Virus record (IMG/VR): IMGVR_UViG_3300037264_001715
Location: 1-23,406 of that record
Strand: one strand, 5' to 3'
Origin: a virus
DNA: 23,406 bases
Part shown: positions 8,530 to 22,649 of the stretch, one piece after another
Position numbering within the stretch: position 1 is the stretch's first letter
Layout: each line of letters opens with the position of its first letter
Position numbers and translations under genes: made by a program
The notes under the pieces: generated by a model
Seen by the model: the letters and a program-made list of their open reading frames with translations, nothing else
Told to the model about the DNA's origin: nothing
Databases searched by the model: none

Positions 8530-9825
8530 ATGGGATCGCACGCTGAAAAAACTGTCCGCGTGATTCGCGTAGCCGTGGTCGGCTCCGAGGGCGATTGGCC
8601 CGAGGAAAGAAAGCGGCTCGCCGCCGTGGCTCAACAGATTCAGGCGGCCACTAACGATTGGGCGGCGCATTGGCTGCGGCTGCACTACGCGGCGGGCAAC
8701 CACCTCACAGTGCGCCAGTGGATGGCCGCGAATCTGGCCTGGGTCAAGACGCCACAAGCCGAGCGCGTACCGGCCGCCCGCGTGCCGTGCCCGGTGAAGC
8801 CGTGCGATGCGGCGATGAGTCGTGAAATCTACGCGGCGTTGCGCGTCGATCATTTTTCTCTCGGCACGAAGCCCGTGGGGTTGGCAACGCAAAAGGCGAT
8901 GAAGCGCCTGACGCAAAGCGCCGCTAGCCGGTCGGCCTATCCACGATGGATGATTATTTTGGCGGGGTGCGGCGAGTTCCCGCAATCGTCTCGATCTTTG
9001 CCCGTGCCATTTCATACGAGCAACTGCAAACTGATTTTGCCTACCGCCGGAGAAGAGCGCGAGGAGTGGCGCTTGGAAGTGCGGCTGGAGCAGAAGCCTG
9101 GCGATGCGCAAGGTCTGGTTCCGATCCGATTGAAACTGAAAACGGGCGGGCGGAGCTGCGCGGCGATCCGGGCCGCGCTGTGGAACATCGCCAAGGGCGA
9201 CTGGAAGTTCTGCGCGTCAGATTTGGTTTGCCGGAAGGGGCTGTGGTATGCCCACATTTGCTATCAGATGCCGAAAGCGGAGTTGCCGGCACTGGACGGG
9301 GATCGCACGGCGTTCCTCTCGGCTGGCGCGAACACGCCGATTTTATTGCGGCTCGGCGGCCGAACATGGAAGCGTCTGCGGCGGGGCAACGACGTTCGCC
9401 ACGTCCGGCGGCAGTTGACGGTCCAGCGATTCGGCAAGAGCGAATCGTATCGTTACGCTTCGTCGGCCAAGAAGGGTCACGGCCGTGGAGTCGTTCTGGC
9501 ATGGCGAGAGAAGTTGACGCGACGGTGGCGTGATTTCGTAAAAACGTGGAACGGTCAACTCGCGGCGGAGATCGCCAAGCGGCTGCGGGCGGAGGGGATC
9601 GGGCGGCTGGTGGTGTATCAGCCGGCGGACGATTGGCGGGATAGCCGATTTCTGGCGAACGCCGGAAAGATTTGCGGACGCATAGATTCGACGGGCTGGG
9701 ACTGGTATCAGATGCAGGCACAACTCAGCCGGATTTGCCAGGAAAACGGGATTCAAGTGTTGGTCAAGAAGGTTGGCGAACGGCGTTTCCGCGAAAAGAA
9801 ACAACCGGAAGCCGTGCCGGTGTAA
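8530..9825 (+). CDS. compact Cas12/TnpB-like CRISPR effector, predicted nuclease-dead (type V-U-like)
   Basis: This 431-aa basic protein starts at ATG 8530 after a strong Shine-Dalgarno (aggagagg). Residues 225-251 (DWKFCAS, then LVCRKGLWYAHICYQMPKAE) match the strand pair before RuvC-I in TnpB and Cas12. The RuvC-I place (261-273, AFLSAGANTPILL) should read G-I-D-L-G; the Asp is replaced (S-A-G). A basic bridge-like stretch (313-341, K-K-G-H-G-R-G-x-V-L-A-W-R-E-K-L) leads to the RuvC-II strand (359-369, RLVVYQPADDW), where the usual Glu is Tyr/Gln. Residues 389-412 (WDWYQMQAQLSRICQENGIQVLV) match the final helix and strand, but the protein then ends, so the CxxC zinc finger and RuvC-III Asp are absent. 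It lies 17 nt before a CRISPR array without adaptation genes. The likely role is crRNA-guided DNA binding and gene silencing. A related alternative is a TnpB-derived repressor, but the array favours a CRISPR effector. Confidence 0.8.
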   Translation: MGSHAEKTVRVIRVAVVGSEGDWPEERKRLAAVAQQIQAATNDWAAHWLRLHYAAGNHLTVRQWMAANLAWVKTPQAERVPAARVPCPVKPCDAAMSREIYAALRVDHFSLGTKPVGLATQKAMKRLTQSAASRSAYPRWMIILAGCGEFPQSSRSLPVPFHTSNCKLILPTAGEEREEWRLEVRLEQKPGDAQGLVPIRLKLKTGGRSCAAIRAALWNIAKGDWKFCASDLVCRKGLWYAHICYQMPKAELPALDGDRTAFLSAGANTPILLRLGGRTWKRLRRGNDVRHVRRQLTVQRFGKSESYRYASSAKKGHGRGVVLAWREKLTRRWRDFVKTWNGQLAAEIAKRLRAEGIGRLVVYQPADDWRDSRFLANAGKICGRIDSTGWDWYQMQAQLSRICQENGIQVLVKKVGERRFREKKQPEAVPV

Positions 9826-9842: not shown

Positions 9843-10671
9843 GGTGGAGAGCAGCGTCAATTCAAGGGTGACTACAGGAGGACGTGCTTGTCGGGAATCT
9901 GCGCCGCCGGGTGGAGAGCAGCGTCAATTCAAGGGTGACTACAGGGCGACCTACTGGCAGCCTCCACGAATACGGGGTGGAGAGCAGCGTCAATTCAAGG
10001 GTGACTACAGGCTGACATCGGATTGGGCCCAGGGGGTTTGGAGGTGGAGAGCAGCGTCAATTCAAGGGTGACTACAGGCAATTCGGGGTTGCGGTGCGAC
10101 GGTGCAACTGGTGGAGAGCAGCGTCAATTCAAGGGTGACTACAGGCGCATACCGTTGGGCTAGGAGGCCGTTCGTGGGTGGAGAGCAGCGTCAATTCAAG
10201 GGTGACTACAGGGGTTCAGCACCAGGACGCTGTACGAGAATGGTGGAGAGCAGCGTCAATTCAAGGGTGACTACAGGAGTCCCAAACGCCGGCCAAACTC
10301 CCGCAAGGGTGGAGAGCAGCGTCAATTCAAGGGTGACTACAGGGTACAAGTTTGTAGCCGTATGGCGCCGGGGGTGGAGAGCAGCGTCAATTCAAGGGTG
10401 ACTACAGGGGCGGTACTCCATGGGTGGCCAAGGCTCAGGGTGGAGAGCAGCGTCAATTCAAGGGTGACTACAGGGGAAAGGTATCTCTATGCCCAATTCT
10501 ACAGCGGTGGAGAGCAGCGTCAATTCAAGGGTGACTACAGGAGAGGTTCTCGACCCAGCCGACGGCCTCCCGGGTGGAGAGCAGCGTCAATTCAAGGGTG
10601 ACTACAGGGACATCAGCCCGTCCTTATCGACGATGGCGGTGGAGAGCAGCGTCAATTCAAGGGTGACTACA
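9843..10671 (+). CRISPR. CRISPR array, 13 repeats of 36 nt and 12 spacers of 29-31 nt
   Basis: The repeat begins GGTGGAGAGC and ends GACTACAGG, with GTCA (repeat positions 14-17) able to pair with TGAC (27-30) around a 9-nt loop, a short 3' hairpin as in many type V repeats. Repeats start at 9843, 9910, 9976, 10043, 10110, 10177, 10242, 10308, 10373, 10439, 10506, 10573 and 10638. The first twelve are identical; the thirteenth departs from the consensus at its last two bases. The degenerate copy at the right end, plus the effector on the left, says the array is read left to right with the newest spacers nearest the effector. Spacers are all different, and by eye none matches other parts of the window. 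There is no AT-rich leader and no cas1/cas2 in the window. Confidence 0.97.
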
Positions 10672-13199: not shown

Positions 13200-13433
13200 A
13201 TGGCACCCAAAATCATAGACGCCTACGGCTCGATGCACGCCCGCGATTACTGGCGGATGCGTGGCGAGCGAACATTTCCGGCCACGGTGCGATTCACGGC
13301 GCAACTGCCAATAGTACCGGAACCGGAGAGCGACGAGCAGTTCCTACGCGATAGGGACCGAGGATTCAAGACCTGGACCGACGAGGATGACAACCTGCGC
13401 ATGGTGCAGGGATACCCTGAGAGGAACCGCTAA
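13200..13433 (+). CDS. hypothetical protein (77 aa)
   Basis: The ATG at 13200 comes one base after the stop of a nine-codon leader frame. The protein is charged (HARDYWRMRGERTFPATVRF; EPESDEQFLRDRDRGFKTWTDEDDNLRM) and probably mostly helical. Its stop overlaps the start of the annealing protein gene (TAATG), so the two are made together. No family is recognised. Proteins of this size next to ERF-type genes are sometimes partners in recombination, but that is only context. Confidence 0.55.
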   Translation: MAPKIIDAYGSMHARDYWRMRGERTFPATVRFTAQLPIVPEPESDEQFLRDRDRGFKTWTDEDDNLRMVQGYPERNR

Positions 13434-14314
13434 TGACTCCCAAACAGATCGACAACGACCCAGACGGACCATTCGAGCCTATACCCGCCATGCCGCCAGC
13501 CATCGCCGCCGCCGTGGTGAATGTGATGCGCAACGTCAAGCGCCTGACTCGGACCGACGAGAACAAGTTCCAAAAGTATATGTACACGTCGATCGACAAT
13601 TTCCTTGAGTCTACCGGCCCGCTATGTGCCGCCGCCGGATTGATGATTCTTGCGGAAGAGGAAGATGTCGAAATCACCCAGGCACCCAAGGCCGACCGGG
13701 AAGGCACATCGAACTTTCTCCGGGTCCGCTGGGGGTTCACGCTCGCCCATGCCAGCGGCGTGACCTACGGCCCCCTACATCGCACGGTGATCGTGCCGGC
13801 TGCTGGCGCACAAGCCTTCGGCAGTTCGCAAAGCTACGCGCTCAAGCAATTCATGCGCGGCCTATTCCAGATACCGACCGGCGACAACGACGATCCTGAT
13901 AGCGGAGACAAGCCAACATTACCAGCAAATGAAACCCAGAAACCGCCCGCCCGCAAGCCACCCGCCAAGACCAACGGACAGAAGCCCGACGCCGAGGCTA
14001 CCAAGAAGGCCGCCGCCGAGCGGGACATCGCCGCCGCCGACAAGTGGCCGGCCCTTTGTGAGTTGGCCGACCGACTCAAGGCGTCGTCATTCTCCGAACC
14101 CGTGTTGACGGAACTGACCGGGCAACTCGTGCAGAAGATGTTTGACAAGCTGACCGTGCAGCTGGAAACCGCAACGTCAGCCGAAACGCTCGACAAGATG
14201 GAAAAACTCGCCGGGGCATATTTCGATGCCACCCGACAGAAAGTTGCCACCGGCCTGATAGCGGCGCGGCGGGCCGAGTTGGACAAGTTCGAGGAAACCG
14301 CCGCCCCGGCGTAA
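13433..14314 (+). CDS. erf: ERF-family single-strand annealing protein
   Basis: This 293-aa protein starts in a TAATG overlap. The first 150 residues match the ERF superfamily: AIAAAVVNVMRNVKRL, KFQKYMYTSIDNFLESTGPLCAAAGLMIL, and the signature at 128-158 (AFGSSQSYALKQFMRGLFQIPTGDNDD), where G-S-x-x-S-Y-A-x-K followed by an acidic D-D-x-D run is diagnostic. A Pro/Ala/Lys linker (residues about 160-195) joins it to a helical C-terminal half. ERF proteins anneal complementary single strands in phage recombination and genome circularisation. The resolvase and helicase genes later in the window complete a phage recombination set. Confidence 0.85.
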   Translation: MTPKQIDNDPDGPFEPIPAMPPAIAAAVVNVMRNVKRLTRTDENKFQKYMYTSIDNFLESTGPLCAAAGLMILAEEEDVEITQAPKADREGTSNFLRVRWGFTLAHASGVTYGPLHRTVIVPAAGAQAFGSSQSYALKQFMRGLFQIPTGDNDDPDSGDKPTLPANETQKPPARKPPAKTNGQKPDAEATKKAAAERDIAAADKWPALCELADRLKASSFSEPVLTELTGQLVQKMFDKLTVQLETATSAETLDKMEKLAGAYFDATRQKVATGLIAARRAELDKFEETAAPA

Positions 14315-18636: not shown

Positions 18637-18915
18637 ATGAGACATTGGAACTCGACCCAACTGATCCGCGACACGCCTGACGTGTTGACGTTGGCAGCGA
18701 TTCGGCAGTTTTTCGTCAAGCGGCCATTTGCCCGACCGCCGGACTGGCTAAATATCGACGCGATGAAGCCAATGTATAACGAACGCCGGCGCGAGTTGTC
18801 GCTGTGGATCGACGGCTACCTGGCCGCCCATGACACGTACTCAGGGGCGGAGGACATCGAACGGCTGAAAGAGTTGGCCGAGACATTGCGGGCAGCGAAG
18901 GAGGGCGTGAAATGA
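18637..18915 (+). CDS. hypothetical protein (92 aa)
   Basis: The start at 18637 follows aaagggaaagc and overlaps the stop of a seven-codon frame. The product is helical: TLAAIRQFFVKRPFARPPDWLNIDAMKPMYNERRRELSLWIDGYLAAHDTY and IERLKELAETLRAAKEG. The ending is coiled-coil-like. No family recognised. The stop overlaps the resolvase start (ATGA), so it is part of the same early operon. Confidence 0.6.
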   Translation: MRHWNSTQLIRDTPDVLTLAAIRQFFVKRPFARPPDWLNIDAMKPMYNERRRELSLWIDGYLAAHDTYSGAEDIERLKELAETLRAAKEGVK

Positions 18916-19286
18916 GCGACCTGATCGTGACGTTGCCGCTACCGCCGCAATTACTACAGCCGAATCGCAAGCCCCATTGGGCGGCAAAGAGCCGCGCCGT
19001 CCGGGACTATCGCTGGTCGGCAAAGATGGCGACGTTGGCAGCATTGCGAGAGGCGAAGGAAGTGGTCGCGTGGGACGCAGCAGAGGTCGAGCCGCATTTC
19101 TATTTCAGGGTGAACCGTCGCCGTGACCCCGACAACCTCGCGGCCAGCCTGAAAAGTGCGCGAGACGGCCTGGCCGACGCTGGACTGGTAAAAAATGACA
19201 CGAACATTCGGAACGCGGAGCCGGTCGTGGACATTGACCCCGACCATCCGAGGGTTGAGTTGTGGATCACAAGGGTAACGGCATGA
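18912..19286 (+). CDS. rusA: RusA-type Holliday junction resolvase
   Basis: This 124-aa protein starts in an ATGA overlap. It opens with strand-like IVTLPLPPQLLQPNRKPHW, the usual N-terminus of RusA (substrate-binding loop 'P-x-x-x-N-x-x-x-H/R'). It contains RRRDPDNLAASLKSARDGLADAGLVKND: the acidic residues Asp72, Asp74 and Asp85, plus Asp96 in K-N-D, match the Asp-rich active site of the family, which binds Mg. RusA proteins resolve four-way DNA junctions in phage recombination, next in logic after the annealing protein and helicase. The length is normal (about 120). Confidence 0.88.
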   Translation: MSDLIVTLPLPPQLLQPNRKPHWAAKSRAVRDYRWSAKMATLAALREAKEVVAWDAAEVEPHFYFRVNRRRDPDNLAASLKSARDGLADAGLVKNDTNIRNAEPVVDIDPDHPRVELWITRVTA

Positions 19287-20455
19287 CGGCTGACTGGACA
19301 TCGCCTGACGGGAGCAAAGCGCCCTTTCCGTGGTTTGGCGGGAAGCGGCGAGTTGCCGATAAGGTATGGGCCGCGCTGGGAGACGTGGAACAATACGTAG
19401 AACCGTTTGCCGGTTCGCTGGCCGTGCTGCTTGGCCGACCGGCTTGGCACGAGGGGACGTGCGAAACAGCCAATGACGCCGATCAATTTCTGGCGAACTT
19501 CTGGCGGGCCTTGGAACACGACCCCGACGCCGTGGCGCCTTACGCGGATCGGCCGGTGAACGAGGCCGACCTGTTCGCCATTCACCTGTGGCTGGTCAAC
19601 GAAGGCCGCGAACGAATCGCCAAAATGGACGCCAACCCCGACTTCTTCGATGCGAAGGTGGCTGGCTGGTGGGTGTGGGGCATAAACGCTTGGATCGGCT
19701 CGGGCTGGTGCAGCGGCAAGGGGCCGTGGCAGAAGGTCAACGGCGAAGTGGTCAACGTCCGCCAGCTACCGCACCTCGGGAACGCGGGGCAGGGCGTCAA
19801 CCGCAAGCGACCGCACCTCGCGAACGCGGGGCGGGGCGTCAACCGCCAGCTACCGCACCTCGGGGACGCGGGGCAGGGCGTCAACCGCAAGCGACCGCAC
19901 CTCGGGAACGCGGGGCAGGGCGTCAACCGCCAGCTACCGCACCTCGGGGACGGCAACTCACAAGCACAATGTCGGCAGTCGGAAAATATCACGGCCTACT
20001 TCCAACAGCTTGCCGCCCGGCTGCGGAAGGTTCGGGTGTGCTGCGGCGATTGGAGCCGAGTCTGTACGAACGGCGCGCTTTCCTACGGCGACAAGGTGGG
20101 CATTTTCCTTGACCCGCCCTACCAGGGCGACGTGCGAACCGCCGACTTGTACTCATGCGACGACCACACCATCAGCATCGAGGTCCGCGATTGGGCGATT
20201 GCCAACGGCGACAACCCGCGCTATCGGATCGTGTTGGCTGGGTACGTTCAGGAACATCAGGACGCGATGCCCGATATGTGGCGTCTGTACCGCTACTCGG
20301 CGTCGAAATCCTACGGCACAGCCGCCTCGATAGGGACGAAAAAAGGCAACGACGCGAACCGCCATAACGAGGCGCTCTGGTTCTCGCCCGGCTGTTTGCA
20401 AGAGCGGTCCCTATTTGAGCAGCCGCGTCAGGCCAGCATGTTGGAGGAGCGATGA
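19283..20455 (+). CDS. D12-class adenine-N6 DNA methyltransferase with internal repeat
   Basis: This 390-aa protein starts in an ATGA overlap. FPWFGGKRR (15-23) is the N-terminal substrate/AdoMet motif of Dam-like enzymes, VEPFAGSLAV (39-48) is motif I, and FLDPPY (D277-P-P-Y280) is the catalytic motif IV. The order I before IV is the alpha (D12) class. Residues 162-223 are a 14-residue tandem unit (LPHLGNAGQGVNRK and variants, about 4.5 copies) in the place of the target recognition region. The function is likely A-N6 methylation of phage DNA as protection against host restriction. The stop overlaps the next methyltransferase start. Confidence 0.85.
   Translation: MTADWTSPDGSKAPFPWFGGKRRVADKVWAALGDVEQYVEPFAGSLAVLLGRPAWHEGTCETANDADQFLANFWRALEHDPDAVAPYADRPVNEADLFAIHLWLVNEGRERIAKMDANPDFFDAKVAGWWVWGINAWIGSGWCSGKGPWQKVNGEVVNVRQLPHLGNAGQGVNRKRPHLANAGRGVNRQLPHLGDAGQGVNRKRPHLGNAGQGVNRQLPHLGDGNSQAQCRQSENITAYFQQLAARLRKVRVCCGDWSRVCTNGALSYGDKVGIFLDPPYQGDVRTADLYSCDDHTISIEVRDWAIANGDNPRYRIVLAGYVQEHQDAMPDMWRLYRYSASKSYGTAASIGTKKGNDANRHNEALWFSPGCLQERSLFEQPRQASMLEER
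19766..19951 (+). repeat. 42-bp tandem repeat inside the D12 methyltransferase gene
   Basis: Four full units (19766, 19808, 19850, 19892) and a partial fifth (from 19934). Units alternate in start (ctaccgcacctc or cgaccgcacctc) and in end (cgcaag or cgccag), so the higher-order unit is 84 bp. The period is in frame (14 codons). Confidence 0.92.
20419..20448 (+). repeat. shared 3' end of the two methyltransferase genes (copy A)
   Basis: The 30 bases here match 21810-21839 with a single difference (t/a at the tenth base) and encode the same peptide QPRQASMLE. The starts of the two genes also share a perfect 20-base block (19292-19311 and 20464-20483) that encodes DWTSPDG. Confidence 0.85.
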
Positions 20456-21852
20456 TGCGACCCGACTGGACATCGCCTGACGGTAGCATCCAGCTTTACC
20501 ACGCTGATTGTCTCGCCGTCTTGCCCCAGTTGGAGCCGGGGAGCGTCGATGCCGTCGTGACCGATCCGCCTTACGGCCTCGACTTCATGGGCAAGGATTG
20601 GGACCACGGCATACCGGGCGTGCATTTCTGGGAAGCAGCGTTGCGAGCGGCGAAACCGGGGGCGCACCTGTTGGCATTTGGCGGAACGCGAACGCATCAT
20701 CGGCTGATGGTGGCTATCGAGGACGCGGGCTGGGAGATTCGGGATACAATCTTCTGGTGTTTCGGTTCAGGATTTCCCAAAAGCAAAAATATCGGTTGCA
20801 AATGTGGCGGGGGTACGGTATCATATACCCATGATGAAAAAACCAAACAGACGACCGAATGTGACTTGCATCTTGTGCGGGACACCGATGTATCGCAGGC
20901 TGTGGATTCTAGCCAAGGCCGCACACAAGAGAGCGGAGAAATCTGCCCGAAGTGTGGTGGCCTTCTGAATTGGGTCGGGTACGGCACTGCTCTTAAACCC
21001 GCCTACGAATTGATCATCGTAGCCCGCAAGCCGCTGAACGGCACAGTCGCGGCCAATGTCCTCAAGTACGGCACGGGGGGAATCAATATCGACGGGTGCA
21101 GAATCGCGGCAGAAGATGGAGAGGATAGAAGCCGAGACAATTCAACCTGCGATCCTGATCCTTTCTTCCGACACAAGAAACGAATCAATCAGGTAATACC
21201 GCCCGGCCTTGGTCGCTGGCCCGCAAATCTCATACACGACGGCAGCGACGAAGTGCTGGCAGGATTCCCGGAAGTATCTAGTGGAGCAATTCGGGCAGAA
21301 GTTCAGGCCGCCAAGTTCGGAACCAACGGCATTTATGGCAAGGGAAACGGCGGTGAGGAACATGCGTACCAAGGCAATAGCGGTTCCGCCGCGCGCTTCT
21401 TCTACTGTGCTAAGGCGTCGAAAGAAGATCGGGACGAAGGATGCGAAGGGCTGGAGGAAGTTGCGGCGGAAGGATTCGATGCTTCTGACGGTGGTTACAA
21501 CGTGCGAACCTGGATAGACAGAAAAGATGGAAAAGGAAAAGTCCCCGTTGACGCCAAACGGCAACCTCGCCGCAATTCCCATCCCACGGTCAAGCCTACC
21601 GACCTAATGCGTTACCTCTGCCGACTTGTCACCTCGCCCGGCGGAATCATCCTTGACCCCTTCATGGGCAGCGGTTCCACGGGCAAGGCTTGCATCAAGG
21701 AAAACTTCCGCTTCATCGGAATTGAAAACGATACGGAGCATGGATACTTTGCCATAGCCGTCAAGCGCATCGAGGCCGAGTTGAACCGCTTCCCGCTTCT
21801 GGAGCCGAAGCAGCCGCGACAGGCCAGCATGTTGGAGGACGGCAATGGCTAA
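20452..21852 (+). CDS. beta-class N4/N6 DNA methyltransferase with inserted zinc knuckle
   Basis: This 466-aa protein starts at ATG 20452 in overlap with the previous stop. DPPY (38-41, in VVTDPPYGLDF) precedes motif I DPFMGSGSTG (402-411), the beta-class order of N6_N4_Mtase enzymes. An insertion between them holds CKCGGG (about residue 121) and CPKCGG (about 166), a likely zinc knuckle. RPANLIHDGSDEVL-like text (GRWPANLIHDGSDEV) and SHPTVKPTDLMRYL are standard elements of these phage enzymes. It would methylate adenine N6 or cytosine N4; no restriction enzyme is adjacent, so it is probably an anti-restriction or orphan enzyme. Confidence 0.85.
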   Translation: MMRPDWTSPDGSIQLYHADCLAVLPQLEPGSVDAVVTDPPYGLDFMGKDWDHGIPGVHFWEAALRAAKPGAHLLAFGGTRTHHRLMVAIEDAGWEIRDTIFWCFGSGFPKSKNIGCKCGGGTVSYTHDEKTKQTTECDLHLVRDTDVSQAVDSSQGRTQESGEICPKCGGLLNWVGYGTALKPAYELIIVARKPLNGTVAANVLKYGTGGINIDGCRIAAEDGEDRSRDNSTCDPDPFFRHKKRINQVIPPGLGRWPANLIHDGSDEVLAGFPEVSSGAIRAEVQAAKFGTNGIYGKGNGGEEHAYQGNSGSAARFFYCAKASKEDRDEGCEGLEEVAAEGFDASDGGYNVRTWIDRKDGKGKVPVDAKRQPRRNSHPTVKPTDLMRYLCRLVTSPGGIILDPFMGSGSTGKACIKENFRFIGIENDTEHGYFAIAVKRIEAELNRFPLLEPKQPRQASMLEDGNG

Positions 21853-22198: not shown

Positions 22199-22413
22199 GA
22201 CCATCAGAAATCGAAGTCGGCAAAACCTACATCAATGTTCGCACTGGACGGACGCGCACGGTGTCGCGGATTCGCACAGATTGGGGGGGCAACGTATTTG
22301 TTCACTACCTATTGCCTCCGCCACGGTACTACCTATTGCCTCCGCCACGGTTCGGCACTTTTTTTTGCTTATTGAAGTCCTTTGCCCGTTGGGCTGGGAA
22401 GGAACTGAAATGA
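22195..22413 (+). CDS. small protein with a duplicated segment (72 aa)
   Basis: The start at 22195 is in an ATGA overlap. The N-terminus EIEVGKTYINVRTGRTRTVSRI is a small beta-domain seen in many phage proteins (start 'G-x-x-Y-x-n-r-x-x-x-R-x-V'). The second half carries the peptide YLLPPPR twice because of a 24-bp tandem duplication, then a T8 tract. Whether the duplicated end is functional is unclear; the usual family probably ends near the first copy. The stop overlaps the next start (ATGA). Confidence 0.5.
   Translation: MRPSEIEVGKTYINVRTGRTRTVSRIRTDWGGNVFVHYLLPPPRYYLLPPPRFGTFFCLLKSFARWAGKELK
22304..22351 (+). repeat. perfect 24-bp tandem duplication
   Basis: The 24 bases at 22304-22327 are repeated exactly at 22328-22351 (unit begins actacctattg and ends gccacggt). 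The two copies are in frame (8 codons). No substitutions separate them, so the event is recent. An 8-T tract follows at 22359-22366. Confidence 0.95.
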
Positions 22414-22649
22414 ATACTCTGTTCATAGCAATAATGTGCGTTGCGATAGGATCGTACCTGTGCGGCATGGCCCACGGTGGATTTGCGATGGCCCCGCCCA
22501 TCCGTCCGCCGAAGCGCAAGCGACTGAGAGTGCATTACCTACGCGGCGACGACGGGCTGATTTTCCGGCTCCGCTGCCGGCCGGGGGCGTTTCGGCGGAT
22601 GGTGGCGAAAATAGAGGACGAATCATGCGGTCGTCAACGAAAGGGTTGA
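22410..22649 (+). CDS. small membrane-anchored protein (79 aa)
   Basis: The start at 22410 has ggaagga upstream and overlaps the previous stop (ATGA). Residues 1-27 form one hydrophobic segment (MNTLFIAIMCVAIGSYLCGM then AHGGFAM), likely a signal anchor. The rest is very basic (RPPKRKRLRVHYLRGDDGLIFRLRCRPG) and should be in the cytoplasm or bind nucleic acid or lipid. No family recognised. Confidence 0.55.
   Translation: MNTLFIAIMCVAIGSYLCGMAHGGFAMAPPIRPPKRKRLRVHYLRGDDGLIFRLRCRPGAFRRMVAKIEDESCGRQRKG

Follow-up and report, generated by a model that had tools for sequence, protein, structure and literature searches.

Probable copying of gene ends between two unrelated methyltransferase genes of a virus, and a candidate sliding-clamp tag in the shared tail

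The virus record IMGVR_UViG_3300037264_001715 in IMG/VR, whose entire 23,406 bp form the stretch of DNA analysed here (the window) and which is possibly a fragment of the virus, contains two adjoining genes for methyltransferases of unrelated classes, MT1 and MT2, that have nearly the same DNA close to their starts (block A, the leader) and at their ends (block B, the tail). We consider it reasonably likely that the terminal segments of these genes were made alike by recombination, that the ends of MT2, an N4/N6 enzyme, were thereby copied onto MT1, a D12 enzyme, and that the tail serves as a tag for the sliding clamp. The two genes are the following:

19283..20455, plus strand: MT1, a D12 (Dam-like) N6-adenine methyltransferase of 390 amino acids (PF02086, 33.5 bits, cut-off 22)
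20452..21852, plus strand: MT2, an N4/N6 methyltransferase of 466 amino acids (PF01555, 90.9 bits, cut-off 26.7)

An earlier note, made from the letters of this DNA, had assigned the genes to different enzyme classes with opposite motif order, and this is borne out by the matches to PF02086 and PF01555, both of which exceed the curated cut-offs. In MT1, EPFAG (EPFAGS; motif I) precedes DPPY (motif IV), as in the D12 class, and the matches in the PDB are of the DpnII/Dam type, whereas in MT2 DPPY (TDPPYG; motif IV) precedes DPFMGSGST (motif I), as in the N4/N6 enzymes that have DPPY first, and the PDB matches are DpnA, CcrM and RsrI. Both genes are open and they overlap by ATGA. The body of MT1 also holds in-frame tandem repeats of 42 nucleotides (nt) at 19759-19968, which code for R(Q/K)(L/R)PHLGNAGQGVN; similar arrays of differing length are present in the D12 relatives at loci L015, L028, L031, L049 and L102, and the array in MT1 is a possible variable recognition region.

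The shared blocks lie as follows:

19292..19315, plus strand: block A, copy 1, the codons DWTSPDGS of MT1, the first 20 nt equal to those of copy 2
20464..20487, plus strand: block A, copy 2, the codons DWTSPDGS of MT2, where this leader is probably native
20418..20448, plus strand: block B, copy 1, the end of MT1 (QPRQASMLEE), including a Shine-Dalgarno-like GGAGGA before MT2
21809..21839, plus strand: block B, copy 2, the end of MT2 (QPRQASMLED), including a Shine-Dalgarno-like GGAGGA before the next gene (ATG at 21845)

That the same 20 bases occur near both starts was confirmed (19292-19311 and 20464-20483, 20/20), and across the eight shared codons DWTSPDGS 23 of the 24 bases agree, the lone difference being GGG/GGT, both Gly. 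The two copies start 9 nt past the A of the ATG (19283 and 20455), i.e. in equal codon phase. The near-identical block reported for the gene ends is likewise present, although it is better given as 20418-20448 and 21809-21839 (30/31), with CGT/CGA, both Arg, as the sole difference in shared codons, and the C-terminal peptide QASMLE that was said to be common to the two proteins belongs to a longer common stretch, QPRQASMLE. When up to three mismatches are allowed, the record holds exactly two copies of block A and exactly two of block B, against none in dinucleotide shuffles. Moreover, even if identical peptides are granted, the probability of such DNA identity under independent codon choice, given the codon usage of the virus, is only about 0.006 for block A and 0.003 for block B, and therefore the DNA itself was copied. 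Chance and convergence were rejected as explanations of the blocks on the basis of these mismatch-tolerant counts, shuffles and codon-choice probabilities.

The direction of copying can be approached by comparison with the nearest relatives, to which all family statistics given here refer (the best 80 loci of 480 and of 587 confirmed relatives; the searches of records covered 50 of 81 D12 records and 48 of 80 N4/N6 records). The leader DWTSPDG is found before the PFPWFGGK motif in none of 77 other D12 enzymes, and the nearest relative of MT2, at locus L105, has a similar leader (PTWQSPCGRATLYHGD vs PDWTSPDGSIQLYHAD). In AlphaFold2 models (from alignments of 25 and 26 sequences) the shared leader has a predicted local distance difference test (pLDDT) score of 94-96 in MT2, and scores of 43 and 51 in the first two 10-residue blocks of MT1, as would be expected of a leader that is foreign there, although the leader is absent from every other row of the MT1 alignment, which makes its low model confidence weak evidence. 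In the 40 best blastn rows the stretch homologous to MT1 is always confined to 19315-20388, between block A and the tail. Directly before block B, MT1 has a D12-like QERSLFE, which includes the following element:

20399..20416, plus strand: QERSLF of MT1, to be compared with the D12 tails QRSLFEV of L017 and L246

To judge from these tails, QERSLF is probably the original D12 tail of MT1, with the acquired tail placed after it. An L105-like leader that is folded in MT2 and not in MT1, together with the retained QERSLFE, thus points from MT2 to MT1: as part of the explanation as a whole, leader A and tail B are likely to be native to MT2 and to have been copied in frame onto MT1.

The strongest evidence comes from a sibling, L209, a contig of 7,198 bp binned with Candidatus Hydrogenedentes, which holds the D12 gene nearest to MT1. 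The DNA of this gene is 84% identical to window positions 19316-19813 and 81% identical to 19866-20380, and the match therefore starts right after block A and stops short of the tail. After HNETLW an inserted element, about 2.4 kb long and flanked on both sides by the same bases, breaks the gene, whose own last segment, YSPRCVEDSRFPLLEPPQPKQTELLEKPC, lies past that element. The element itself (L209, 4166-6569) is an insertion element with 21-bp terminal inverted repeats, a transposase-like gene and further small open reading frames (ORFs). The tail of the L209 enzyme, SRFPLLEPPQPKQTELLE, is homologous to the tail of MT2, NRFPLLEPKQPRQASMLE, the alignment score being 68, where 202 other methyltransferase tails reach a mean of 14.5 and a maximum of 29, and 5000 shuffles a maximum of 39. 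What is an N4/N6 tail here is therefore a D12 tail there. The L209 leader, MKPTWQTADTPK, scores best with the N4/N6 leaders of L105 (34) and MT2 (24), a score of 34 being reached by 4 of 300 shuffles. The gene that follows the L209 enzyme is a homologue of window positions 22413-22649 (35% identity, E 1.8e-13 in a single-pair comparison); no MT2 lies between the two, and a search of the L209 genome for an MT2 homologue gave five weak partial matches, none of them the expected partner. Judged by sequence, L209 thus seems to show the locus with one enzyme, as against the two-enzyme state in the window. The contig also bears on the possibility that assembly joined methyltransferase genes of different viruses. 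The window is a single-copy metagenomic record, and short repeats may be expected to mislead assemblers; however, MT1 and MT2 overlap by ATGA, the L209 D12 body bears a homologous tail independently, and the gene downstream of it has its homologue downstream of MT2, so that we regard such a joining as extremely improbable.

End sharing is seen at other loci as well. At L154 the same 18-21 nt close an N4/N6 gene as well as both tandem copies of another N4/N6 gene, and at L102 ERLRQ..LF ends both a D12 and an N4/N6 enzyme. The tandem duplication at L154 (4246-6121) has its left border inside the tail of the neighbouring methyltransferase. The likeness of D12 and N4/N6 tails averages 17.6 within one virus as compared to 11.9 between viruses (p 0.0002; 10 within-virus pairs without the window, two of them from one locus). 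In a scan of mechanically called genes (1776 ORFs, 204 methyltransferases), a tail score of at least 16 was reached by 5 of 31 methyltransferase pairs (25 loci) and by 13 of 9007 other pairs; the five include genes 6-7 of L154 (the tandem duplicate), a same-family pair at L108 and the window itself. Ends have thus moved between unrelated methyltransferase bodies more than once. Of the earlier proposal that shared borders let methyltransferase bodies be exchanged as cassettes, one part holds, in that ends do travel between unrelated bodies (witness the L209 D12 enzyme with its MT2-like tail), and the other, that body swapping is what the ends are for, is not supported: the copying of ends onto MT1 fits better than a shuttling of bodies between fixed ends.

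In the case of the tail, the sequence itself suggests a function. The relevant elements are:

20429..20443, plus strand: QASML of MT1, a pentapeptide like the clamp motif (from sequence and family enrichment)
21820..21834, plus strand: QASML of MT2, a pentapeptide like the clamp motif (from sequence and family enrichment)
Tail peptides, putative clamp ligands: QPRQASMLEER and QPRQASMLEDGNG

The consensus for binding to the bacterial beta clamp is given as QL(S/D)LF in the accessible text of PMC9690074, and in both tails QASML corresponds to the pattern Q-x-[SD]-[LM]-[FL] or comes near it. In both models the pLDDT falls below 50 at the C-terminus (residues 380-390 of MT1 and 454-466 of MT2), coinciding with the shared tail, which is thus predicted to be disordered. 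Within the last 20 amino acids Q..[LMI][FL] is present in 27 of 74 D12 enzymes, 20 of 85 close N4/N6 enzymes, 6 of 24 other N4/N6 enzymes and 12 of 992 other genes from these loci, where shuffled tails give on average 1.3, 1.3, 0.5 and 9.9, respectively; internal 20-mers of the same D12 proteins have it in 3 of 1266 cases and those of the close N4/N6 proteins in 4 of 1771. The stricter Q.[SD][LMI][FL] occurs in 15/74, 9/85, 3/24 and 0/992 of the same four groups, and the tail profile of the families reads Q-x-[SD]-L-F. These counts exclude the window's genes, proteins of fewer than 80 amino acids, repeated tails and non-methyltransferase ORFs of fewer than 100 amino acids. As the pattern was picked after some tails had been inspected, a second set, taken from genome contigs, is the fairer test: there the motif ends 11 of 43 D12 enzymes (of the 51 that have a complete end, those with SPxC or NPxC near it) and 4 of 300 other ORFs. 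The suggestion that the C-terminal peptide is a clamp-type motif is therefore upheld by its enrichment over other genes, and we take the shared tail, as part of the explanation as a whole, to be a predicted beta-clamp-binding tag, a likely reading as far as sequence can tell.

The tail could also be a common targeting tag for another partner, such as a replisome or phage protein, in keeping with the many tails that retain xLF without Q. Among the tails that have [LMI]F, however, the residue at -3 is Q in 23 of 44 D12 and 19 of 38 N4/N6 enzymes, and position -1 is taken by S or D in 24 and 15 of these, respectively, both as in the clamp consensus (as worded in the same accessible text of PMC9690074), and we find a different partner rather improbable. 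The likeness to the bacterial motif consists of a pentapeptide pattern in a C-terminal, disordered tail; the difference is that DNA methyltransferases are not among the clamp partners in the available portion of PMC11139829, in which the term 'methyl' occurs 0 times. A parallel for a clamp tag on a methyltransferase is known from eukaryotes, where DNMT1 is paired with PCNA (PMC9690074, accessible text). In our literature search no DNA methyltransferase of a phage or bacterium was described as having a tail that binds the clamp, which is weak evidence of novelty because subscription papers are mostly outside such a search.

Besides the caveat on the MT1 leader, several observations weigh against the explanation favoured here. 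The check that the earlier note had proposed, i.e. a search for these ends around other methyltransferases, came out negative for the exact sequences: the 20-mers of A and of B occur in no other IMG/VR record (although close records may be missing from the set searched), QPRQASMLE in any codons is found neither in IMG/VR nor in the L209 genome, and the back-translation of DWTSPDG is found at 8 IMG/VR loci only, none of which is the start of a methyltransferase. The similarity of the L209 leader to N4/N6 leaders is modest. The shared tails at L154 (LFADMI) and L028 (GFGL) lack the Q motif, and among 20 genes from named phages 5 have the motif, those of the enterobacterial phages 9NA, Solent, e270.1 and LASTA ending without any; tails of the clamp type are seen in Pseudomonas putida phage Dolphis (QQDLF) and Streptomyces phage ZL12 (QVSLF). 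Ala at position 2 is said to reduce clamp affinity (available portion of PMC11139829), so that QASML is not the optimum, and the control ORFs of both motif tests are mechanical calls that include spurious ones. Finally, gene-boundary repeats are also found at non-methyltransferase genes (L049, L111, L031); end sharing is thus not special to methyltransferases and the recombination route is general. The latter repeats, like the absence of the motif from several cultured phages, would suit a neutral scar, in which ectopic recombination between neighbours copied the ends and neither these nor the tail have a function. Nevertheless, neither of the two differences in the shared codons alters an amino acid, the frequency of clamp-type tails on these enzymes is 20-30 times that in other genes, and the tails recur on unrelated bodies, for which reasons we hold a functionless scar to be unlikely.

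Block B touches translation as well, since the GGAGGA at its end is followed within a few nt by a start codon in both places, that of MT2 after copy 1 and that of the next gene after copy 2; a copied gene end may thus bring a ribosome site along, which may favour this breakpoint. One could go further and take the conservation to be translational altogether, with B as the region where ribosomes bind for the next gene and A as early codons of each gene, the more so as copy 1 of B and copy 2 of A can pair over 8 nt (20426-20433 with 20475-20482) around the MT2 start. This would account for some 8 of the 31 bases of B and leave the codon identity of A wholly unexplained, while the fold barely exceeds shuffles (z -1.57, 13/200) and matches no Rfam family, and we deem it very improbable. 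An RNA element as such was rejected on that fold, the other folds having z values of 0.00 and 0.10.

We therefore favour a scenario in which recombination within the phage lineage would have equalised the ends of the two unrelated genes: leader A and tail B of MT2 would have been copied in frame onto the neighbouring MT1, the D12 body between them being left untouched, and similar end captures would have taken place in other viruses. The disordered QASML tail would anchor the enzyme to the beta clamp and thereby allow phage DNA to be methylated during its synthesis, and the captured end would carry a Shine-Dalgarno-like signal for the following gene. It would be enough if the tail were selected for its role as a tag, and selection of the ends for exchange need not be assumed. 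The agents may have been the phage's own annealing and resolution proteins, which are plausible candidates because both are encoded in the record:

13433..14314, plus strand: ERF single-strand annealing protein (PF04404, E 1.4e-15; phrog_155)
18912..19286, plus strand: RusA-like Holliday junction resolvase (phrog_34, E 1.7e-16), whose end overlaps the MT1 start by ATGA

In addition to these genes and the two tandem methyltransferases, the window encodes a ParB-like protein and a helicase, and it has weak matches to neck and tape-measure proteins. Besides the methyltransferases, the gene order that it has in common with the loci of relatives comprises only the helicase, in 6 loci. Elsewhere in this 23-kb record a 431-residue protein (8530-9825) matches Cas12f (PADLOC, E 3e-16) and Cas12u3, and its gene is followed by a CRISPR array (about 9843-10671; 13 repeats of about 36 nt with a period of 65-67), the two together forming a miniature type V CRISPR system borne by the virus. 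The adjoining genes at 1671-2021 and 2037-2378 have similar starts (54 nt, 78% identical) and are probably tandem duplicates.

Movement of methyltransferase parts and repeats at gene boundaries are both known already (PMC3983042 and PMC3203893, as far as their accessible texts go). In domain movement (DoMo), described for restriction-modification genes of Helicobacter pylori, target recognition domains move between framework repeats in related genes, and there, too, pieces of methyltransferase genes change place, with recombination between the repeats that flank them as the probable route (PMC3983042, accessible text). In the window, however, it is the ends that are alike and the bodies that come from unrelated classes, and the shared blocks are terminal, which sets the case apart from DoMo. 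The start-associated sequences of cluster K mycobacteriophages, typically 3-7 bp before the start codons of many genes, are likewise short repeated DNA at gene boundaries within one phage and touch translation signals (PMC3203893, accessible text), whereas blocks A and B are in-frame parts of coding sequences with two copies each, and so do not belong to that type. A repeat that does appear to be start-associated is present at L049 (1717-1746, 2509-2534, 2707-2738 and 3243-3274, minus strand), where 26-32 nt are repeated, ending in ATGA. In lambdoid phages, 'boundary sequences' are recombination sites between modules; they, too, are short and conserved, lie where modules end and could guide exchange, but the ends described here sit within the coding sequences of two neighbours that have one enzyme activity.

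The locus is a rare case that allows the source and the recipient to be set beside a sibling, L209, in which the outcome was different. New phage DNA has to be marked by the methyltransferases of the phage before it is cut by nucleases of the host, and a clamp tag common to unrelated classes would, if true, explain how such marking is timely and provide a simple sequence rule; it would also show that phages can fit new enzymes with clamp tags when gene ends recombine. At a more general level we put forward, tentatively, that phages may equip unrelated methyltransferases with interchangeable C-terminal clamp tags, sometimes with matching leaders, that are passed on by short-homology recombination and couple acquired enzymes to replication, so that the genome would be protected once it is made.

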